Assembly: GCF_008831285.2 (NCBI RefSeq)
Contig: NC_045140.1
Location: forward strand, 27,918,131-27,982,130
Source of the DNA: Nymphaea colorata
Lineage: Eukaryota; Streptophyta; Magnoliopsida; Nymphaeales; Nymphaeaceae
DNA length: 64,000 bases
Reading direction: 5' to 3'
In this document: piece after piece, positions 8,781 to 63,167 of the stretch
Position numbering within the stretch: position 1 is the stretch's first letter
How the letters are laid out: each line of letters begins with the position of its first letter
Notes under the pieces: model-generated
What the model saw: the letters and a program-made list of their open reading frames with translations, nothing else
Database searches by the model: none
Told to the model about the DNA's origin: nothing
Position numbers and translations under genes: made by a program

Positions 8781-8871
<91 letters not shown>

Positions 8872-9823: not shown

Positions 9824-12800
9824 ATGGCGATGAAATCTTCATTCCTCCATCTTCCAGTCCCAAATTTCAAGGGCTTTTCAACGATTTCCGAATCCAAGAA
9901 CCTGTCTTTTCCGTCGTCGACATCACTATCTCAGCGGCCACCACCGCCATCACCGTCGTTACCGTCTTCTGAGACAATTTTCTGCGGCAAGCAATCTGTA
10001 AGAAGAGGGAAGCAGAGGTACCCGTCGGAGAAGAAGAAGCTAGAGAGGCAATTCAAAGACCTAAACAATGTGGAGAACAAAGAGGAGGGTTACTGGAGAT
10101 TCTACAAATTGGCGGTTCCGGTGCAGAAGGATCCGGGCAAAGACCATATCGGCATTTCAGATGGCCTCCTCGAGGCCGTTGCGAAGGCTCTCAAATTCCC
10201 GGTAACTGAATCAGATTTTCCATATTTTATCTTTTTCCCGTAATTTTCCTTCTGTTATTCTTGATTGATACGTGCGCTATTTCCATGTTCCGTGTATATG
10301 CCCTTTGATGTAGGTTGCCTCATTGTTGCCTCACGAGGCGTTTTCTGTCGTCAGAAAATCGTTCGATGCCAGAAAGGTTCGTCGACCCATCACCTTCCTT
10401 TCATTTTGTTATTTTGCTTATTATCCTCTGTTTGGTGCCTATGTTCTTACTCTATTCGACTTGTCCTTTTCATTTTCTGTTATCGGGTAGTTCATCTGGT
10501 GTTGTGATTTACTACTTACTTTTCTATTACTCTATTGACTTGTCCTTTCAATTTCCGTTGGAGGACATACTCTTTGGCAGGTGTGAGCATTCCACTGACT
10601 ATTCAATGCAACTTATGGTGCAGGTGCTGAAGGAACCGAAGTTTGTATACACTGTTGACATGGACACGCAAAAGCTACTGAGTTTGCAGCCTCGTGCCCA
10701 GGACTTTGTTTCTCGGTTGGAGCCTAAAGCAGGGGTTGTGGAGCATTTTTCCACTGAAAAGGATTCTGGTGACTTGATAAGCATCTTAAATGGCTATACA
10801 GCGACCAATGTTAGCGGTGTACCCGCAAATGGAACTCGTGCTGTTTCTTCAAATAGTCTCCACAAGTTTCAGGGTGGAAAAAAGCCCAAAATTGCCGTTG
10901 TGGGTAGCGGACCATCTGGGTTGTTTGCTTCTCTTGTTCTTGCAGAACTTGGAGCTGATGTTACTTTAATAGAGAGAGGACAAGCGGTCGAGCAAAGAGG
11001 GCGTGATATTGGTGCACTAGTTGTGCGACGAATTTTACAACCTGAAAGCAACATTTGCTTTGGAGAGGTGCATGTCTTCGACTCTTCTGTCACCTTGTTT
11101 CTGCTTAACACTGTTCGGTTTTGATATGGGTTCTTGGCACATGGTATTTGCATGTGGTAAGGAGAGCACAATTATGTGCAGCATCAAAATGGTGCACCAT
11201 AAACTACATCTGTATTTACATTTAGAACTTGGAGTTTCCAAATTTGGATCGAGGCAGTGAGAAGCCTTCAAGAACTCAATTTTTATCAAGAAGCTGCTGT
11301 GATTCTTTAATGACAAATTTACCTTTTTCGGTGCTCTATGCCTTTGTTTTCATGTGCTTTTGCAGCAGAACCTGTTCCTGCTACATGCTTTGGTGGTGCA
11401 TCTAGTAAACGGTCTTCTGATTTTCCTTATTTGTCTTAAACTATGTAGCATCATTAACTTATGCCATTTTTACTGTCACTTAAGCCGTACAAATGCATTA
11501 TTTTTTCAAGCCAGTATGTTTTAAGTGACAGTAAAATGGTATAAGTGACAAAAAAATGGTATAAGATAATGATGCTACACAGTTTAAGACAAATAAGGAA
11601 AATCAGAAGACCGTTTACTAGATGCACCACCAAAGCATGTAGCAGGAACAGGTTCTGCTGCAAAAGCACATGAAAACAAAGGCATAGAGCACTGAAAAAG
11701 GTAAATTTGTCATTAAAGAATCACAGCAGCTTCTTGATAAAAATTGAGTTCTTGAAGGCTTCTCACTGTCTCGATCCAAATTTGAAAACTCCAAGTTCTA
11801 AATGTAAATACAGATGTAGTTTATGGTGCACCATTTTGATGCTGCACATAATTGTGCTCTCCTTACAACATGCAAATACCATTGTGCTCTCCTTAAGACA
11901 AATAATGGCTACTGGGAAATGCACTTATCTTGCAAACAGGGAAAATAATGGCTACTAGGCATGCACTTATCTTCTAATTTTCCTTATTGGTCTACTAGGC
12001 ATGCACTTATCTTATGAAAGTAGCCCCTGTTCGGATTTTGGGAATTCATGATACTAATAAATTGTGTAAATATTTTGTCCTACCGGGACAAGTTACTATC
12101 TTTGTTGTTCCTTCTCCCAACTATAACAATATAACTTGTTTTCTTATAATTTTGCATATATCATCAAGAATTTGCTATGGACTTAATGCACATCAGGGTG
12201 GTGCAGGTACTTGGAGTGATGGGAAGTTGGTGACTAGGATTGGGAGGAACAGTGACAGCGTGCAGGCAGTATGATTCTCCTGAATTTCTTGATTGCTTTC
12301 TTTTGGGTAACATTATGAATAGACAAATATGATTCCAACCTTATATCATACTTTGACATTTTTTTTTGCTTTACTACTGGATTTGGATTTTGGAGTAATA
12401 AACCCTTTATAGGAACATGCTTTCAGATTTTTCTTAGCCTTACAGTGGCATTTCTAATAAGGTTGATCCTTGTCCTCATTTTTGTAGTGATTTTGCATCT
12501 TCTCTCAGTAAGGTATTATTTTCTTTAGTTATATCTGCTAGTTTGGTGAATTTTTCTGTCTGCAGGTAATGAAAACTTTGGTTCAGTTTGGTGCTCCTCC
12601 AAATATCTTAGTTGATGGTAAACCTCATCTAGGAACTGATCGGTTGATCCCCTTGCTGCGGAACTTTCGGCAGCATCTGCAAAACCTGGGGGTACATTAA
12701 ATTTTACCAACTCACGGTGATGCCTCTTTTTCATTGGTTATTTCTACCCATTGCTGCTGCAATGATTTCATATATGCAGGTTGATATCATGTTTGGCACC

Positions 12801-22176: not shown

Positions 22177-22226
<50 letters not shown>

Positions 22227-48504: not shown

Positions 48505-51500
48505 ACTAGTGACCTTTTCTGTTCCTATTTTCATAAACATATAGTAATGTACATCTAGCCAAATAGACATGATCTCCATGTCCGAAAACCTACAAATCAA
48601 CATGAAATTCTTATTTTTCTGATGCATAGATAGAAATTTTATTAGCCAAAAGAGCTTAGACTGTTTATCTTGAAACCCAGACAACATATATTTATGCACC
48701 TAAATAACATGAGTTTACATTGGTTTCAAAGGGAAACACATAGTTTTTACATTGCTTTCTAGGGTGTCGGACATGAAGATCACGCCTATGTGGTTCTTTT
48801 CACAAGAAAACAGATCTGAAGGTGAAAGGTTTGGCAATACATTCACTTGAGAGCACATGATAATTCGTTTATTTATTTAGGTTTATATCTAAAGGACAAT
48901 TTTAAAATTTAAGCTAATCAAGAAAAATTAACACCTGCCAGTGCAGCAACAGACACACAGAGAAAGAGAGAGAGAAAGAGAGAGAGAAGGAGAGAGAGAG
49001 AGAGAGAGAGTATTGTACAGTTTATGGTTCAAACCAAGTCACAGAAAACGTGTATTAATCGAAAAAACGCATATAATACGCGAAAGATATGTCAGCCATA
49101 TAAAACGGCAATTAGACACTTTTTTTTTAAAAATGCCAGAAAATAAAAACGTGAAAAAACATGTATTATACGCATTTTTTCACGTTTTTTGTATTTTTTA
49201 TTAATTTTTATTTTTTATAACTTTCAGGATTTATTAAATGTTTTAAATTTTTAAAAAATTTGCCAAGATTTTCCCGAAATATACAACTTTTCCATATTAT
49301 ACCCAAGAAATTCCCGAAATATACAACTTTTCCATATTATACCCGAGAATTTCCTCGCAGTATAATACCCATACACAATATATGTGACAATGGTTCAAAT
49401 AAATTCCATATTAGAAATTCTTTTTCAAAACTTCAAGCTACTAAAAGGTTAAAAAATGTTAGAATTCCACACACATGACACCACTATGAACCAATACAAC
49501 AATGTCAGAGCTCTAGTATGTATGCTTATTTGGGTGTATGTATGGAACCAAAATTGAGCACCTAGAATTGAAGTTCCAGTGCAGAAATCTTCATCTCATC
49601 AAGTTATCTGGTGCTGAGACTAGCACCAGTTGAGGACATTCTGTGAATGTCTATAACAAGCCTTACCTTGAATTAACACTAAGGATAAGATACATTTAGG
49701 TAGCGTTTCATAAGCCGGAATTTTACTGTAGCACAGGAAATTTAATTCAAATTTTCAAAATTTTTCCAGTTTCATCAAACATGGAATTTTTTTTTTACCG
49801 TTGGGGCTCAAAACGGAATAATATTTCCGGAAATATTATTCCAGCTGAGAGACGGAATAATATTTCCGGTTTTTTTTTTTTTTTAACCGTTGGGGAGGAA
49901 GAAGGGACGGGGAGGAAGGAGGGAGGAGGAAGAAGGAGGAAAAGGGAAGGAGGGAGGAGGAAGAAGGGAGGAAGAAGGGAAGGAGGGAGGAGGAGGGAGG
50001 AAAGAAGAAGGGAAGGAGGGAGGAGGAAGAAGAAGGGAAGAAGGGAGGAGGAGGGAGGAAAGAAGAAGGGAGGAGGAGGGAGGAAAGAAGAAGGGAAGAA
50101 GGAAAGAAAGGAAGGAGGGAGGAGGAAGGAAGGAGGGAGGAGGAAGAAGGTAAGGAGGGAGGAGGAAGCAACAGAGGGTTTACCCTCTGCTGGCGACGTC
50201 CGCTGCTCACAATCGGAGAAAGAGAGGGGCGGAAGCCCCTCTAATCGTGGCTGATGGGAAAGGAAGGAGAAAGGGCAGGCCTGCCGCCCACCCTTTTTTC
50301 CCTCTCCGTCTACACCCTCGTCGCCATCATCGGTGATGGCCCTCTTCCTCCTTCTTCCTCCCTTCCCTTCCCTCACCCTTTTCCTCCTCCTCCTCCCTTC
50401 CCTTCCCTTCCCTTCTTCCTCCTCCTCCCTTCCCTTCCCTTCCCTTCTTCCTCCTCCTTCTTCCCTCGCTCCCTTCTTCTTCTTCCCTCCTTCCCTTCCT
50501 CCTCCTCCTCCCTCCCTTCCCTTCCCTTCTTCCTCCTCCTCCCTTCTTCCTCCTTCCGCCCTGGCTCCCTTCTGCCTCCTCCCTCCTTCCGCCCTGGCTC
50601 CCTTCTTCCTCCACCCTCCTTCCCTTCTTCCTCGTTCTTCCTCACCATTTCCACCAAATGAAGAATTTTTTTTCTAGAAAAATATTTCCTCTATAACAAA
50701 CAGAAGCTGGTTTTGGAAAAACAGAAAAATATTTCCCATTCTTCAATTCCAGAAATTTATTTCTAGAAATTTTTTTCCAGAAATATATTTTTGGCCATCA
50801 AACACTACCTTAGTGAAACAACTCTTCCCAAGTTCCCACTGTTCCTGACTCTCCATGGCACCATTGGGGTTCAATTTCATATACTTGAGCATTTAAATTT
50901 TGTAACCCTCCCCCCAAATTTATTTATGAAACATAGGGATGTCATAATTCGCTGGTACCAACATAAAGCATATGACCACCCGAACCTAATTTCAGCACGT
51001 CTTATCTACTATTTCTCATTTAATGTAAGGAAACATGAACAAAAGGAGACAAGCTAAAAAAACCACAGCATTTTAGCCATATGTTTCACATGGATATTCA
51101 GAATATCAAATGGTTTCTTAGCATTAGCTATAGTTTTTGTCTCCAACAAATAAATCGACTAAGAACAATAGCATTTAATACAAAATCTAAAAACAGTTCC
51201 CGATGCACAAAACACATCAATTCAAGTACTATGAAGTAGAGATGACAGTATATGTGTGTGTGTGTGCATGCACTTCAACCTATAGAATTAACAATAACAA
51301 TACCATTACCAGGTCAATGAAAGGCCTTATACTGTATTTTGCTGCGACAAATTCATAAACAGTAAAAAACAAACAACACATACCTCCTTTATATCATACT
51401 TTGATTCACGAAGTCTTTCACTCCAAAAGGTAATGTCCCAATGTTTCAAATCATCTGCTTCAACTGCACCCTGCTCTCTTGAGAAAATCTTAAGGTCCTC

Positions 51501-54500
51501 CATGTCTGCATAACATTTTAAACCTTCTAATTTCCAATTCATTAATCAATAGAAAAAAAAAACAAATTTCAGCTCTGAATCCAAAAACACATATAGACGT
51601 GCATATATAAGAGGAATCTCTTAACTCATATCCGAGATGCCTTCAAGATGGGCGGGCAGTGTTCATTTGCAGGCTCTGACGAGTGATGACATACATACGT
51701 ACATACATATAATATACGGGAAAACCTATTGAACCATCCATTGACATAGATGGACAGGTTTTTCTTCTTTTCCCCTCAAATCCTATTTTAATTCTAGGAT
51801 TACATCTTGGGTGAAGGTCTGGATACCCTGGACATGGTCAACCTCGTGTCAAGTGTGGCCCACAAAGAGAGGTCCTTATCTGTCCAAATAGATTTGAACA
51901 AAGTTGACCGAACCCATTTTTGACTTTTTTAAGGTAAAATAATTAATATATTTTAAATAAATAAAAGGAAGAGATCAACTTTGATTGTCCTCCTATGGAT
52001 CTCCCTCCCTGCAGCCGTTCAGTTCATCTGCTCAGCAGTGACCAGCAGCAACTCACCAGCAAGAAGACCCACAAGTGCTGTGCTCTCCTTCCTCTCTCTT
52101 TCCCTTTCTAAATTTAGGAATTCTAAAAACCTGAAAATTATGTTGAACTGAAAAAGATTTCATTTATACTTCTTTGAAACATAAATTAAATTCATGAACT
52201 GAAATCCATTTTTATTTATGTTCCTTTGAGATCAACTTTTTTATTGGTGGATATTTTACTTTATTTTATTTTCTTTAAATTTTCAATTCCAATACGTAAA
52301 TGAAATCAATTTTTATTGTGCATTTTTTTGCTATATTAGTCATTTTATTTGCTATGTTGTTAAGGCCTCGCCTAGGCATCAGCGACACCTAGGGATGGAC
52401 TAAGCATTGTCACCTATGTCCACTACTTAGGCGACGGGATATGTGCTGGTGCCTAGGCTGGCTTAGGCACCAGCACGCCTAGTCCATGGGAAAGTGAAAA
52501 GTCATCTTCTCTTTCAATTAAAGTTTCTTAATTGAGTATATATTGTTATGTACTTTATTTTGTATTGATTACGTATTTTTATGTATTGTTAAGTTGATTA
52601 CATTGTTATATGTATATACTGTTAGTCACTTGTTCTGTTAATATAGTACTGTGATACCTCATACCTATTATATATATGTATACCCTAGTATGGTTATGTA
52701 ACGGACTTATATCATATAGTCATATGTATTATTAATTAGTTATACCTGTTATGAACTTATATGTATAAACTTATCTGTATATACTATTATGTACCAATGT
52801 TATCACTGGCGTAGCGTATCGTGTATCGGTCGGGCCGACCTATACGCCGTATCGTAACGTATCGTAAACGTATCGTAACGTATCGTAAAATTAATTTTTT
52901 AATTTTTAAAAAATATTTAAAAATTATAAAAATTTCCAAAAAATCATAAAAACTTCTAAAAATTCCGAAAAAACAAGTAAAAATCAGAAAAAATCAAGAA
53001 AATTGTATTTAAAGGAACATTCATCACTCATGTATATGATTATGAAGTGTGAACTATGAAGTATGAACAACACATTCCAAAATAAGAAATCAGACATTCA
53101 AAATAACATAATAGGCAGCTGAAGAGAATTCAATTACATCACAATTCATAAGTTCAAAAGTGAAAACATATAGTTATCAATCATGATTCATTCAAGTTTC
53201 AACAACAATCCTCGTCAATCGCCATTTCCATCATCATCTTCATGATCATCTTCATTTTCTTCATTAAGTGCTTCTATCCCCTTTGTTGGAAATGGAATGT
53301 CACCAACATTCCATTGCTCTCCAGCCTCTCATTCTTCAATAATCTCTGCTACTCCTTCAAGGTTCAAAAAATCAAGATCGTCCTCAAGGTCATCAAGTAT
53401 TACATATTGGTGTTAGAAATCAAAAAACCCTCTTTCTCCAAGCTTCCCACCGTCCCGAGACTACCCACAACAAGAAATAAAGCTTCTTCACCGGCAAATC
53501 TTGATGCAAATGGAGAAAATCTCTCCATCCCACGTCTCTTGCAGTGTTTAGAAACAATAGAGGAGAGAGAGAGGAGCGTAGGTTTTAAAAAAAGATGCAA
53601 AAAAGGGGCCGTCGGGCCCCATTTTCATTTTAACCCCGTATCGTACGATACGGGGGTGTATCGCCCGTATCGTACGATACGGGCGATACGCGTGCGATAC
53701 GCACGCGTATCGTGCGTAATACCTGTATCGTACCGCTTTTGTTGATACGGACGATACGTATCGTACGATACGCGTCCGTATCGTACGATACGGATAACAT
53801 TGTTATGTACTATTAGTCTGTATTGTTATTTTACCTGCTGTTATACCTATTACATGTATTGTAATACCTGTTATATGTATTCTTAATTTGTTTTAAAACC
53901 TGCTGTTATACCTGTTATATGTACTTTAATACAATTTGTTATTCCTGTAACCCTGTTATATGTATTGTAATACCTGCTATATGCATATACTGTATGTATA
54001 GTATTGCATTGCATCAATCTGTTATATGTATATACTGTGTAGTATTGTGATACCTGCTATATGTATACGTTAGTATGGCAGTACTTATATGTATTGTTAC
54101 TGCTATGTACTTATATGTATGGTATTATGTACGGTTAGTCTTTTTTATTATATTATACCTTCTTTAAGTACAGATGGATAAAAGTCTTCTTGTGGATTTA
54201 CATTCATTCTTATAGAGATTAGATTTAGTTTGTTTTGTTGTTTCTTGTATTAGATTACATTTAATGAGTAACATTACACTTCTGCTATGATTTTGCATAT
54301 TCAATGAAGTCAACAATTATTTTTTGATTGTTTAAGTTGATTATGCTTGTTATATTACTACTCTCCACATTTCAAATATTAATAATAGTTAATCAAAATA
54401 ACCTGACATATTAACATAACTAAAAAAATTTTTTAAAAATTTGGTCACCTTTTTTGCCTAGGCCCATCTAGGCATGGCGCCCAGGTAGCGCCTTGACAAC

Positions 54501-57500: not shown

Positions 57501-60500
57501 ATTGGCCCATCTGTCTGAGGATTGTATCCAGTACTCATGCATAGTTTCGTTCCCTCCAGGGCAAAGTATTGCTACCAAAAGTTACTGCGAAACAAGGAAT
57601 CCCTATCACTTACAATCGACCTATGCATGCCATGGAGCTTCCCAACTTGTTCCTGAAAGGTATCCGTACACCCTTGGTTGTCAAGGGATGTGACAAGGAT
57701 ATAAAGTGAGTGTACTTCGACAGCCTGTCCACTACCACCCGCACCACAGATTTTCCCTTTGATCTCGGTAATCCTTCGAAGAAATCCACCGAAATGTTCC
57801 CCAAATGCGCATCAGAATTAGTAAAGGTTACAAAAGTCCAGCAGACTTCAATGACTCATATTTGTGCCTTTGACAAACGTCACATTGCTGCACATATTCT
57901 CGTATTTCTTCTTCTTTCCTGGCCAGTAGAATATGCGGCGAATACATTTATATATGCCTTTTGCTCCTTGGTGCCTGGCTTTCGGGGAATCATGGTATAT
58001 GGCCATTAATGCCCTGGTCAACCCAGACTCTGGTGGTAAATAAATTCTATTCTGAAATAGAGGTATGGTTTCCACCAGGTATACCCGTAAGTCTTCACTG
58101 GTTCTCCTTCCAGCCTCTTCTTAAGGTTATTCACTGACACAACAGTCTGATAATCTGAGTCAATTGGCCGAATAAGGGAACAGAATTGGTGAGCAGTAAC
58201 CACCTTCTGGTTTTCCACTTCATATTGTCTTGAAAGTCCTTCTACTGCACTGTCTTGAGATCATTTCTTATATCTAACTTCAAAGTCATAACCAGTTACT
58301 TTGAGTATCCATTTCTGCTGGGCAAGGGAATGGATCTTCTTTTGCATGCAATATCTTAAACCGTGATGATCCGTTTGCACAAAAAATCTCCTTCCGAGTA
58401 GGTAGTGATGCCACTTTTGGATGGCAGCGACCATGGCTATTAATTTGCACCCATACGCAGATTTCCCTTTAAATTTTTCTCTCATAGCTCTACTGAAGTA
58501 GGTGACATGATGCTGATTCTGATTGTGAACAGGGCCTATGCTGACTTCTGAGGCATCAGTCTCTACAATAAAGGGCTGCAAATAGTCAGGCAGCCTTAAA
58601 ATAGGGGCACTGCTGATGGCTTCCTTCAATTTGTTGAACGCCTCTATTTTGTTCTCCCTCCATTCAAACTGGCTATTCCTTAACGCGGCTGTGAGAGTGG
58701 CAATGATAGTCCCAAAATTGTTGACAAATTTTCGGTAATATCCTGCCAATCCAAAAAAAAACATGCAGTCCTTTAACTCCCTTAAGCACTTCCCAACCTT
58801 TTATCGCAGATACCTTCTCTTCTTCCATGTTTACTCCTCCCTTCAAAATGGTATGCCGCAAATATGTCAGACGACTGCTCCCGAAGAAGCACTTGGAGGC
58901 TTTGGCATGCAGTTGGCGATGAAGCAGCAACAGTGTTATCCATATCGTACGATACAACTCGTCTAGGTGAAGAAAACCCAGACGATACGGCTCGATACGC
59001 TTGCGTATCGTGCCCGTATAGAGTGTATCGTACGATACATGTAGTGTATCATATGATATACCCTGTATCTTACGATACAGAGTTAAAATTTGAAAAACGA
59101 TCCCAGGGCCCCTTTTTGAGTTATTCTTTTAAATTGAGACCCTCTCTAAACTTACCTAAAGGCTGTGAGAGGGAGAGATTTTGCTGGTTTCTCCAACAAA
59201 TCACTGTTTTGAGGAAGAAAGTAGAAACCATCAATTTGATGAACTCGTGATGTAGTTTACTAGACTTTGTAGCACTCTAAAGTCTAAAGTCAAAACTCGT
59301 ATGTGATAGATGCTCTTTAAACTTGTGATGGATCATGGATGCTTTAATATGCTATTTTCAATCTCTTAGCCTTACTATTCATTTTTCTGAATTTGTTGCT
59401 GATATATATGCCTATGGTTTATGAATGATGAATCATTAATGTTCCTTATGTGTGATGAGCTTTTTTTTATATGAAATACATTGTTCTTGACTTTTCTGTT
59501 TTTTTAGATATTTTTTCTTATTTTTTACTATTTTTAGTGTTTTTTAATTAAAAAATCAATTTTACAATGTGTTACGGTACATTTACGATACGTTATGATA
59601 CACTGTATAGGTTGGCCCGACTGGTACGCGATATGATATGCCAATGACAACATTGAGCAGCAGACTTAGGACCTATCAAAGAGGACTGAGATGCAAGCTT
59701 TCGTCTGAGCTAAAGACCAATATATCATTAAAAAAAACAGTACAAACTTTCTTAAGTAGGGAGGAAATATCTCATTCATGAGGGCTTGGAATGCGGGCGG
59801 GGGCATTTGTAAAACCGAAGAGCATTACCCTGAATTCGTAGTGCCCTTCGTGTGTTTGGAAGGCCGTATGTATGTCATCCTTGTCCATATGGATTTGGTG
59901 GTCCCCTACCCTCAAATCCAGCTTTGAGAAGACTCTTGCCCTTGCAAGTTCATCCAACAATTCTTCAATAACGGGAAAGGGATATCTATCATTGATCATG
60001 AGGGTATTGAAGGCCCTGTAATCTACACAGAAACGCCACGATCCATCTTTCTTTTTTACTAACAGGGCAGGTGATGAATAGGGGCTGCGATTGGGCTGTA
60101 TGACCCCTTCTTGCAGCATTTCCTTTATAAGTCTTTCAATCTCTTCAGTCTGGCCATAATCGTACCGACAGGGTCTGATATTTACTGGTTTAGCACTGGG
60201 CTCTATGGATTTGGTGGTCCCCTACCCTCAAAACCAGCTTTGAGAAGACTCTTGCCCTTGCAAGTTCATCCAACAATTCTTCAATAACGGGAAAGGGATA
60301 TCTATCATTGATCATGAGGGTATTGAAGGCCCTGTAATCTACACAGAAACGCCACGATCCATCTTTCTTTTTTACTAACAGGGCAGGTGATGAATAGGGG
60401 CTGCGATTGGGCTGTATGACCCCTTCTTGCAGCATTTCCTTTATAAGTCTTTCAATCTCTTCATTCTGGCCATAATCATACCGACAGGGTCTGATATTTA

Positions 60501-63167
60501 CTGGTTTAGCACTGGGCTCTAGCTCGATTCTATGGTTCAGTACCTTGGCTGGTGGCAGACCTTTGTGTTTTTCAAACACCCTTACAAATTCGGCCAGCAG
60601 AGGCTGCACAAACCCAAGTGGAGTGCTGCTCCCTTCTGCATGTGACTGAGATCCTACAGCACAAGTCATTAGAACCAGATGTAGGCATTCATTTTTTTGG
60701 CTTACTTTGCTGATCTATACATTCTCTTCGCTGGATCTTGCTGCCGGTACATTATTTTCACCCCCTTTTCCTCTAAAATTCATCTTCATTTCGATGAAAT
60801 CCCACTCCACACCCCTAACTGCCTTAGCCATTGTATTCCTAGAACCACGTCTGCTCCACCCATGGCTAAGGGGTACAACTCGATTTCAAAGTGTTGTCCC
60901 TATATTTCCACTACCTACTGTGGGCATTTGCCTTTGCATACTAATGTTACTGTCGTTGCCCGCCATTACTCTAAATTCAGACTGTTCTTCCACTAGGCAT
61001 CCACAAACCTTCGCTGTCCCTTCACTAAGGGGGTGTTTGAATTGCGCGGACGGCACTGCAGCCCGCAGTCTTCAGTCTATGCTGTACAGTTTTTGGCTTC
61101 GTGCAATCACCTACGAAAGTTTTGTCCGCAAACAAGGAAGCCTTATTGTGGACATGGGTCCATGAAATTTTCTCCAGCCTGAATAGGTTTAGTGTGCCAC
61201 CTATCTCTTCTACTAGGTACATATGCAACCGTTTGCATACATGCACTAGGTTTCAACGCTCATCGGCCATCGCACTGGAAGCATAGTCCCTTCCTTCTCC
61301 TTTCCTTAATCTGTTCAACAGTTCAGGGTTAAGTCACTTGATTAGGATATATTTCCCTTCAGGCAACTGTTTCGTGAACCCTCTTCCGATGCACTCCTCT
61401 TTCACAATTGTACCCCCTTAGCCGCAAGTCCCTTATTGACTTTGAGGTCCTTCAGCCCGCCTCCCAACCTATTGTATTTTTCTTCTGCAATTCAAGTCAT
61501 CACGAAGCTATCTAGTAGAGTTTGCAGTCACACTGCCTGCTCTTCCACTTTGATCTTATCCTTTAATCCTCCCACAAACACTTCTGTAAGCACCTCTATA
61601 GGCCTCCCACGGACCATGTTGTTCAATCCTGACATTCTAGGACAGACCTTCTCTGTCTTATCTTCGATAACTCGACATTGTACTCGAAATACGCTGATGG
61701 CCCAAACCTCACTGTTAGGTCTTCAACAAATTTCTCCGAAGGAGGTTTTCCTTGCTAGGACACCAGCCAACGGTACCACCTGATCATTGGTCCTTCCATA
61801 TGCACAGCAACATGCACAACTCTCTGTTCTGATTGGATTCCTTGGCATTCGAAAAACTGTTCTACTCTGAATATCCAACTTAAGGAGTCTTCGCCAAAAA
61901 ACCTAGGAAATTCCATCTTGGGAGTCTTGAGATTTCATGTCGTATCCCCTGTTCGATAGGAAGGCCCAACTGACCCATTCACGTTGGGATTAGGCATACC
62001 TGATATGTCGTTGGGTGGAGAGCGCAGCAAGCTGTTGCGCATCTCTGGTTCTGTTCAGCGTGGATTTTCTCCATTCGGATGCAGCCGACTGGACGATGGG
62101 TTGTCCGGTGCTAAGTGTTCTTCCATGCAATAGAGCATCTTTCTCATCAAGTCAGCTAGGTTTTGTTGCTCCGCCATGACTGTCGCCACCATCGACTGTA
62201 CCTTTGGTCGACTTCCATCAACTCTACTCGAGCTCCCCAAAGTTCTTCTCCACCTTCTCCCTTCTTCCCGCCATTACATGGCAAGCCTCCTCTGACTGCA
62301 TTCGGAAGTTTTCCAAGATGGACACGGTTTGCCTCGTTGTCATCATTCCTCGCTCTGATACTAGTTGGCAGCCTCCACCTCCGCAGAGACACTCAGGCAA
62401 AGTTGTTAACTCACACGCACCTCGATAACTAAGGAAATTAAGGCAAATCCCCTCTCCAGAAGGTTAACATTTCATTACTCAAAAGACTAACTACTTCGGG
62501 TCACCTCCCGACTACATATAAGGGTGATTACATTTGGGTAATTAAAAGAGAGCTGATCCAATATATGGAACAAACCCGATTCATGTATTGTTTATATTTT
62601 TCCCTTTTATTACGAGATCTATACTTTACTGGGTTGCTATCACAATGTGACGCTAACTTTTAGTTAACATTATGACATTGTGTATACCAATAAGAAGCAA
62701 TGAGAATAAACTGGGGAAGCCGGTTTAATTTCCCAAACCAGTTCAAATAGAAATGTGTGAAACATATGTTCCTGATCTAGAACCATAACACTTACATTTT
62801 TATTTTTCCATTACAGAGAATAGTAAGATATGCATGTTAAATAGGTACCATTACTATGTGTCAGTTGATGTATCAATCGACCATGGACCAGTGCAAAACC
62901 TAACCATGGCTACAAGCCTCATGGAAATGGATTGCAGACCTATGAAGAACCTTGAATTAAGAATAACCAGAAGTTTCTAGATGGAAGTACAAGCCACATG
63001 AATAAAACGGACGGTACCACCAGCTAAGAGGCAAGCTTGACAAAGAAAATTTTGATCAAGAAAAAGCAAAATGGAGAACTACATGAAAGAAAAACCTGCT
63101 GAATTTCATTAAACTGCTGTCTTTTCTCATCTTCCAGGGCCACGCCATTGAGAACAGCTTCTTTTAT
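38924..63167 (-). CDS. M3 zinc oligopeptidase (TOP1/TOP2, organellar oligopeptidase family), 5' end missing
   Basis: Thirteen minus-strand exons: 63096-63167, 55960-56103, 55581-55811, 55405-55495, 51384-51505, 47984-48091, 47649-47894, 47228-47373, 44030-44147, 42932-43091, 42807-42838, 42000-42065, 40052-40123, with the last coding exon at 38924-39010 as a fourteenth segment. All join in phase and give about 564 residues to a stop at 38924. The catalytic exon (47228-47373) holds the zinc motif HEFGH and, downstream, the third ligand Glu in [10 protein letters not shown]. The Gly/Tyr loop [12 protein letters not shown] spans the 42838 junction. Blocks such as [45 protein letters not shown] and the C-terminus EFRGREPSP match Arabidopsis TOP1/TOP2. 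These enzymes clear short peptides, including cleaved targeting peptides. About 140 N-terminal residues or more lie beyond the window, so plastid/mitochondrial or cytosolic form cannot be told. One intron is GC-AG (47648). Confidence 0.94.
40124..41999 (-). other. Oligopeptidase intron with compound GA/TA microsatellite
   Basis: AT-rich intron; the microsatellite lies at about 41002-41060. Nothing else is recognised. Confidence 0.6.
41002..41060. repeat. Compound (GA)n(TG)n(TA)n microsatellite
   Basis: About 22 bases of GA, a short TGTG bridge and about 32 bases of TA, inside an oligopeptidase intron. Confidence 0.92.
43534..43867. mobile_element. hAT-like MITE, family 1 copy A (334 bp)
   Basis: Ends GATTGTCACA and, reverse-complemented, CATTGTCACA. 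It is flanked by a perfect 8-bp target duplication CCTTGAAC at 43526-43533 and 43868-43875. The interior is AT-rich with CGCGTATTATACG-type palindromic words. No coding capacity. Confidence 0.85.
44264..44687. mobile_element. hAT-like MITE, family 1 copy C (424 bp, diverged)
   Basis: Ends CTATAGTCACAGAAAT and, reverse-complemented, CAAATAGTCACAAATAT. It is flanked by a 7-bp repeat GCAAACT at 44257-44263 and 44688-44694. The termini resemble copies A and B, but the interior is more diverged, so membership is probable only. Confidence 0.55.
45358..46715. mobile_element. Non-autonomous hAT element carrying a captured gene fragment (1358 bp)
   Basis: Terminal inverted repeats TAGGGCTG...CAGCCCTA, with subterminal regions dense in GAGCCGAG/CTCGAGCTCG words. 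It is flanked by a perfect 8-bp target duplication CTCCTACC (45350-45357 and 46716-46723), which defines hAT-type insertion. Between the subterminal repeats (about 45546-46540) lies unrelated sequence with a CT-rich leader-like part and a degraded trihelix-type coding segment. No transposase is seen, so it would depend on an autonomous relative. It sits in the oligopeptidase intron between exons 44030-44147 and 47228-47373. Confidence 0.85.
46060..46544 (+). pseudogene. Captured, broken trihelix-type transcription factor fragment
   Basis: Two overlapping frames read the start of a protein like the plant trihelix/Myb-SANT group of At1g21200. The first gives [12 protein letters not shown]; the second continues [17 protein letters not shown], then [20 protein letters not shown] and LQEKGKWK. 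The frames switch at a run of nine Cs (46132-46140), where one more C would restore continuity. The conserved segment between KWTD and VGDD is shorter than in family members I recall, and the copy stops right after KGKWK at TAA, losing the rest of the DNA-binding and C-terminal regions. The expected start codon position reads TTG. All this marks it as non-functional passenger sequence of the hAT element. Confidence 0.6.
48455..48510. repeat. TA tract with inverted ACTAGT..CCCTATA flanks
   Basis: ACTAGTTTCCC followed by about 36 bases of TA, then GGGACTAGT. The whole block is a near-perfect palindrome. Confidence 0.85.
48965..49011. repeat. (GA)n microsatellite
   Basis: GA-rich tract with occasional AA/GG interruptions, within an oligopeptidase intron and just left of MITE copy B. 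Confidence 0.9.
49034..49391. mobile_element. hAT-like MITE, family 1 copy B (358 bp)
   Basis: Related to copy A in inverted orientation. The left end CCAAGTCACAGAAAACG matches the reverse complement of copy A's right end; the right end reads ATATGTGACAAT. It is flanked by a perfect 8-bp duplication GGTTCAAA (49026-49033, 49392-49399). A segment (CCCGAAATATACAACTTTTC) is tandemly repeated near 49275-49340. Confidence 0.82.
49699..50809. mobile_element. Foldback TIR element with purine/pyrimidine arms (1111 bp), Harbinger-like
   Basis: Outer ends GGTAGCGTTTCATAAGCC and, reverse-complemented, GGTAGTGTTTGATGGCC. They are flanked by the trinucleotide TTA on both sides (49696-49698, 50810-50812), the target duplication typical of PIF/Harbinger (Tourist-like) elements. 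The left interior (about 49888-50170) is an almost pure purine tract of GGAGGAAGAAGG-like units; the right interior (about 50340-50640) is the matching pyrimidine tract, so the arms can fold back. A mixed-sequence spacer (50171-50335) lies between. Another short palindrome, GGAAATATTATTCC, lies near 49829. No transposase. Confidence 0.75.
52351..54505. mobile_element. TIR element with GCTATGTTGTYAAGGC ends (2155 bp), host of a nested element
   Basis: The left end reads GCTATGTTGTTAAGGC and the right end, reverse-complemented, GCTATGTTGTCAAGGC. Flanking TTATTT occurs on both sides (52345-52350, 54506-54511). Subterminal CGCCTAGGC-type palindromes occur near both ends. The interior is AT-rich with repeated TGTTATATGTATTG words and contains the hAT element at 52795-53802. 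Without that insertion it would be about 1.1 kb. The superfamily is not certain. Confidence 0.65.
52795..53802. mobile_element. Nested hAT element, family 2 copy 1 (1008 bp)
   Basis: Ends CAATGTTATCACTGG and, reverse-complemented, CAATGTTATCCGTATCG, flanked by a perfect 8-bp duplication TTATGTAC (52787-52794, 53803-53810). Its right part is packed with GTATCGTACGATAC palindromes. No intact transposase frame. Confidence 0.85.
54555..54585. repeat. (TA)n microsatellite
   Basis: About 31 bases of TA ending in TGTCAC, just outside the TIR element. Confidence 0.88.
56468..56732 (-). repeat. 3' LTR of the Gypsy element
   Basis: 265 bases, clearly alignable with 62366-62642 but with many substitutions and small indels. 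A purine tract (GAGAGGGAGGCAAT on the minus strand, about 56733-56746) adjoins it, as expected for the polypurine tract. Confidence 0.88.
57610..58075 (-). pseudogene. Integrase remnant of the Gypsy element
   Basis: Minus-strand frames read a zinc-domain-like part ([20 protein letters not shown]) and an integrase core-like part ([31 protein letters not shown]). The two parts are in different frames with stops between them, so no full integrase can be made. C-terminal remnants extend down to about 57.0 kb. Confidence 0.8.
58261..58930 (-). pseudogene. RNase H and RT thumb remnant of the Gypsy element
   Basis: Reads [11 protein letters not shown] (RT thumb side), [15 protein letters not shown], then RNase H-like [21 protein letters not shown] and [16 protein letters not shown] frameshift near 58.76 kb splits it. 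Its upstream side is cut off by the nested hAT element. Confidence 0.82.
58931..59655. mobile_element. hAT element nested in the Gypsy element, family 2 copy 2 (725 bp)
   Basis: Ends CAGTGTTATCCATATCG and, reverse-complemented, CAATGTTGTCATTGGC. These match the two ends of 52795-53802 in opposite orientation. The flanks AGCAGCAA (58923-58930) and AGCAGCAG (59656-59663) form an 8-bp duplication with one mismatch. It carries the same GTATCGTACGATAC palindromes and splits the retrotransposon's reverse transcriptase from its RNase H. Confidence 0.82.
59664..60669 (-). pseudogene. Reverse transcriptase remnant of the Gypsy element, with internal duplication
   Basis: Minus-strand sequence reads [72 protein letters not shown] and FGFTNAPA, followed by a catalytic-box region reading [10 protein letters not shown] 316-bp tandem duplication (59889-60520) repeats the middle and shifts the frame. 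Stops follow, so it is dead. Confidence 0.85.
59889..60520. repeat. 316-bp tandem duplication within the RT remnant
   Basis: 59889-60204 and 60205-60520 are head-to-tail copies. I count about three substitutions between them (for example TCAAATCC/TCAAAACC and CAGTCTGG/CATTCTGG). Confidence 0.93.
60700..62350 (-). pseudogene. Gag/protease region remnant of the Gypsy element
   Basis: Heavily degraded. A minus-strand frame at 62055-62240 reads [20 protein letters not shown], gag-leader-like; no intact protease or zinc knuckle was recognised. Confidence 0.55.
62351..62363 (-). other. Primer-binding site of the Gypsy element
   Basis: Just inside the 5' LTR the minus strand reads TAGTATCAGAGC, one base from the initiator-methionine tRNA primer site TGGTATCAGAGC common in plant LTR elements. 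Confidence 0.7.
62366..62642 (-). repeat. 5' LTR of the Gypsy element
   Basis: 277 bases matching 56468-56732. Orientation is fixed by the adjacent primer-binding site on the lower-coordinate side. Confidence 0.88.

Follow-up and report, generated by a model that had tools for sequence, protein, structure and literature searches.

How did a long and nearly perfect inverted repeat come to lie within an intron of an oxidoreductase gene, and what might its transcript give rise to? We examined it in a 64-kb window, the whole stretch of DNA that was analyzed. With one intron-bearing gene, pieces of other genes and fragments of retroelements, its content looks like plant nuclear DNA, and the source is presumably a plant. 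Plasmid origin or contamination was rejected, as the intron had no match in the plasmid collection. The best explanation for the hairpin, to which we give a probability of about 0.6, is a young local inverted duplication formed by fold-back at a short inverted repeat.

The host intron and its neighboring exons are placed as follows.

10624..11067, plus strand: exon preceding the intron (exon 3 in the gene model).
11068..12196, plus strand: third intron (GT...AG) of an FAD oxidoreductase gene, containing the hairpin (gene model; the alignment with 3nlc spans the splice).
12197..12268, plus strand: exon following the intron (exon 4 in the gene model; gene model and protein alignment).

Exons 3 to 6 (exon 6 in part) fused into one open frame, which matched Pfam FAD/NAD-binding families. 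Its product aligned with the bacterial solved structure 3nlc (VP0956) at E 7e-40 and with no gap at the intron site. The open frame and the gapless alignment across the splice therefore place the intron at 11068-12196 with the hairpin inside it, at 69 nt from the 5' and 309 nt from the 3' splice site. The intron is number three by the gene model, of which exons 3 to 6 are the part that was checked. Relatives of the host protein were encoded in 87 bacterial stretches, 80 of which were kept, and the best-scoring was 52% identical. NCBIfam gave weak matches to the host protein, all below the curated cut-off among the best 25 of 31 families. The sequence-only reading had placed the hairpin in intron 3 of an essential plastid oxidoreductase gene: the intron position was upheld by the gene model and the oxidoreductase kind by Pfam and 3nlc. 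The gene may correspond to Arabidopsis PDE327, the sequence comparison showing the oxidoreductase kind only. In a plastid study, a table gives PDE327 as an oxidoreductase (PMC8889267).

An inverted-repeat search recovered gapless arms at 11141-11471 and 11552-11882, each of 331 nt, 98% complementary and with 80 nt between them. Gapped alignment, in which 344 of 354 aligned bases were identical, extended the arms to 11137-11490 and 11514-11887; the right-arm input ended at 11888, leaving one unmatched base past 11887. Of the 127 inverted pairs that reached 40 nt or more in the 64-kb window, the hairpin was the longest. It is A+T-rich, about 750 bp long and nearly all inverted repeat.

11137..11490, plus strand: left arm, 354 nt (from its gapped alignment to the right arm).
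11491..11513, no strand: loop, 23 nt (gap between the extended arms).
11514..11887, minus strand: right arm, 374 nt, in reverse complement to the left arm (repeat search and gapped alignment).
11516..11565, plus strand: tandem repeat of about 20 bp in the inner right arm (TRF 11522-11565, period 20; direct repeat 11516-11555).
11468..11536, no strand: short inner inverted repeat, 11468-11490 with 11514-11536, 87% (repeat search); proposed fold-back seed.

Besides 10 substitutions in its 354 columns, the arm-against-arm alignment held two gaps, one of a single base and one of 19 nt, the latter owing to the tandem repeat in the right arm. Runs of exact identity reached 112, 81 and 75 bp. The hairpin had been described earlier as spanning 11141..11883 with arms of about 315 bp and about 98% identity; its existence and the identity were confirmed, and its size was corrected to arms of about 354 and 374 nt over 11137-11887.

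Within the left arm, 11340-11439 carries a pyrimidine-rich stretch ending TTTTGCAG (AG at 11365), followed by about 23 open codons and a stop. The segment resembles an intron end plus a last exon and could be a captured gene end. The open frame had no match in PDB or Pfam, so a captured gene fragment is unproved.

The predicted RNA fold of the hairpin had a free energy of -612.5 kcal/mol, against a mean of -177.7 (SD 6.2; z -70) for 20 shuffles. The DNA fold agreed (-408.4 against -82.4; 20 shuffles), and the stem was retained in the predicted fold of the whole intron plus exon edges. One mark of a long hairpin-RNA locus, a near-perfect long inverted repeat able to pair on one transcript, is present. 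A long duplex in the pre-mRNA had been expected, and as a prediction both the hairpin fold and the whole-intron fold bore it out: the pre-mRNA or the excised intron should form a duplex of about 350 bp.

The differences between the arms were not evenly spread. Six of the 10 substitutions fell in the inner 48 nt (11443-11490) and four in the outer 306; central crowding was significant by Fisher test with a boundary picked after seeing the data (p 0.0006) and by a scan test (p 0.02). This central divergence agrees with a center formed by an older, imperfect short inverted repeat, from which copying of the outer part was later seeded. It need not signal a pre-existing seed, because the center may mutate faster. 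Substitution rates of 4.5e-9 to 1.3e-8 were used to calculate age as K/2r within the window. The estimates, which carry wide error, were about 0.5-1.5 My from the outer arms (divergence 95% range 0.4-3.3%) and 1.1-3.2 My from all columns; conversion between the arms would make the true age older. Judged from its sequence, the hairpin is probably young.

If the hairpin arose locally, its flanks may hold traces of the event. Three right-flank features resembled the arms.

11881..11900, plus strand: outer junction, in which 11881-11895 is the reverse complement of 11158-11172 (15 nt; repeat search, control 40-mers).
11893..11905, plus strand: 13-nt exact copy of an arm piece in right-arm orientation, wholly outside the hairpin (control 40-mers).
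11970..12016, plus strand: diverged arm fragment (from about 11413-11464) in the right flank, direct to the left arm (local alignment score 19.5).

Seven of the 15 nt in the junction match (11881-11887) are also the end of the right arm. The 15-nt match and the separate 13-nt match were each of a length reached by none of 1578 control 40-mers, the best of which gave 12. The score of 11970-12016 was reached in 0 of 804 window comparisons, whose segments overlap and are not all independent. The right flank as a whole resembled the arm in one orientation (0/500 shuffles) and in the other (p 0.012). No such likeness was seen in the left flank, exon 3, or introns 2 and 4 (8 comparisons, p 0.10-0.77). 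The repeat search also showed further short arm fragments downstream of the outer junction, and the junction holds a repeat spaced at 30 bp.

About three related units were observed over 11896-12016 in the right flank, with a 22-nt exact repeat at 11952 and 11992; the last unit resembles the inner left arm.

Two flank fragments were more diverged than the arms (2/24 and 2/20 mismatches) and are therefore possibly older, or else the arms may have been homogenized by conversion. The few arm differences had been read earlier as recent origin or conversion; the low divergence stands, and gene conversion fits the more diverged flank fragments, in numbers too small to decide.

The arm pieces in the right flank, the diverged central inverted repeat and the lack of a target duplication above 3 bp speak for a local duplication by fold-back or template switching rather than for a transposon. 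A nascent strand would have folded back, during replication or repair, at a short imperfect inverted repeat that presumably existed beforehand and became the present hairpin center. It would then have copied about 300 nt of the intron in reverse and rejoined the chromosome where the right flank offered a short match. The short inverted repeat typical of such duplications is indeed found at the inversion center (11468-11490 with 11514-11536). One simple fold-back step does not give the 30-bp-spaced repeat and the extra arm fragments at the junction. The fold-back origin and the age of the hairpin are our inference, as is the reading of the flank scars as the kind of trace that template switching would leave.

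PMC4689423 describes a model of fold-back between short inverted repeats, one at either end, and states that this model had not been recreated experimentally. As in the fold-back or fork-closure inverted duplications treated in that report, the present hairpin has a central short inverted repeat and outer-junction sequence matching the arm. Its loop is 23 nt, and the smallest loop given there at stable junctions is 17 bp. That system differs in consisting of yeast amplicons, which are much larger, whereas the present case is read from the sequence left after the event (PMC4689423).

A DNA transposon of MITE or foldback type, inserted in the intron and bearing very long terminal inverted repeats, would also give about 750 bp of A+T-rich DNA that is nearly all inverted repeat, and about 68% of counted Arabidopsis inverted repeats are reported as likely derived from transposable elements (PMC12595863). 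An insertion of this kind is recognized by its target-site duplication, and none longer than 3 bp was found in a scan of 3-11 bp that paired left ends at 11130-11145 with right starts at 11876-11892; the best were four of 3 bp (CAT, TTG, CTT, TCT). The absence of target duplications, as claimed earlier, therefore held above 3 bp. The range scanned leaves room for a 2-bp type, and a symmetric TA pair (11145, 11877) sits within the arms. Against an insertion, a blastn search with the intron region returned no further copy of the arms within the 64-kb window, a result that leaves room for a repeat family elsewhere in the genome, and the outer ends do not appear to match typical MITE terminal motifs. 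The arm pieces in the right flank are expected of local origin, but an element wider than the hairpin could hold them too. Taken on both sides, we consider a transposon unlikely.

Other repeats were observed in the window. Imperfect arrays at 49892-50627, purine-rich then pyrimidine-rich (GGA/TCC type), face each other and give many inverted matches of 70-77%. A 121-nt inverted pair (52795-52915 and 59535-59655; 80%) lies 6.6 kb apart with short CGTATCGTAA-type repeats nearby, and may bound a degenerate element. Pure TA/AT microsatellites occupy 8785-8868 (84 bp) and 22179-22221 (43 bp). At 59888-60521 there is a 316-bp tandem duplication with two copies about 99% alike, either a young duplication or an assembly duplicate; near it, on the minus strand, lie the remains of a retroelement, with RT RNase H domains (58261-58764).

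An assembly or sequencing artefact, such as a palindromic read with a missed adapter, would leave palindromic sequence of this sort, and the 99% tandem is a second near-identical duplication in the same window. The 23-nt loop, the 10 substitutions (seven transitions and three transversions) and the tandem-repeat difference between the arms look like evolved divergence and not like one molecule copied twice, which makes an artefact very improbable.

The preferred reading, a local fold-back duplication, has the duplicated segment transcribed passively within the intron, assuming that the hairpin is transcribed. The duplex of about 350 bp would be a potential Dicer-like substrate and would yield heterogeneous 21-24-nt siRNAs at most, which might possibly methylate their own locus. 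The intron may be spliced out and degraded beforehand, which counts against small-RNA processing. Our default view is that the hairpin is near neutral.

Selection could instead have kept the hairpin as a hairpin-RNA or young miRNA-type locus silencing a target gene or the host gene. The long duplex within an intron and the precedents in rice introns and in rice inverted-repeat small-RNA hotspots speak for this. In a transcript read in the gene's direction, five of the 10 substitutions leave a G-U pair and five break a pair. Five of the seven transitions keep a G-U pair, in keeping with selection but with no excess over an even split (p 0.45). None of 668 arm 21-mers (both strands) found a target within 3 mismatches in the window outside the intron, and a single shuffled arm, used as control, gave an equal or better result. 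The exon-like open frame in the left arm, matchless in PDB and Pfam, also counts against a selected locus. The earlier suggestion of a young miRNA-type locus found no support as far as known miRNAs are concerned, as no Rfam family reached gathering score across the 64-kb window. Five families matched below gathering within 11361-11662 (E 1.1e-18 to 0.3, one on the other strand), the best being MIR5048, over the full model, at E 1.1e-18 and 87.4 bits, where gathering requires 160. Such matches may simply be what any long hairpin would attract. We regard a selected silencing locus as improbable.

Intronic long hairpins are a kind already known in plant genomes. Two in rice, MIR3863 (1147 nt, intron 3) and MIR2284 (1681 nt, intron 5), are reported to yield microRNA-like small RNAs, with 11414 and 24735 unique reads; one gave chiefly reads of 24 nt, the other chiefly reads of 21 and 22 nt (PMC3661559). 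Long inverted repeats are given as the probable cause of several rice small-RNA hotspots (PMC7649420). The present hairpin resembles the former as a long hairpin in a plant intron (PMC3661559) and the latter in its two similar arms and short spacer (PMC7649420). It differs in that it is shorter than the intron hairpins (about 750 nt) and than the hotspot arms (about 1.3 to 7.4 kb), and that small RNAs are reported for both rice groups, whereas ours is known from sequence alone (PMC3661559, PMC7649420).

Genic hairpins in maize are reported to be intronic in 76% of cases and, taken together, to have a small-RNA density about 89 times that of the remaining gene sequence; these hairpins are short, with a median of 25 nt (PMC10760457). 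In Arabidopsis, about 486 of 634 gene-proximal inverted repeats are reported to give 24-nt siRNAs (PMC12595863). Those repeats, mostly transposon-derived, likewise lie in or near a gene, but the present hairpin has no recognized transposon ends and no target duplication above 3 bp (Arce et al. 2023, via PMC12595863). By analogy with these loci a small-RNA role is plausible, and the hairpin can be regarded as a candidate for a hairpin-RNA locus, a kind already known.

A more specific possibility, which we hold to be doubtful, is that a fresh intronic fold-back duplication already supplies a range of siRNAs, acting on its own locus through methylation or tuning the host gene. It would be a hairpin locus at birth, formed with neither a transposon nor a duplicated target gene, in which the seed repeat, the return site and the template-switch scars can still be read.

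Young hairpins are the supposed raw material for new plant miRNA and siRNA loci. Even if this one gave no small RNAs it would be instructive, as a case of an intronic duplex possibly spliced out ahead of Dicer-like action. A young intronic hairpin with visible scars of its formation would allow a direct test of the passage from DNA accident to small-RNA locus.
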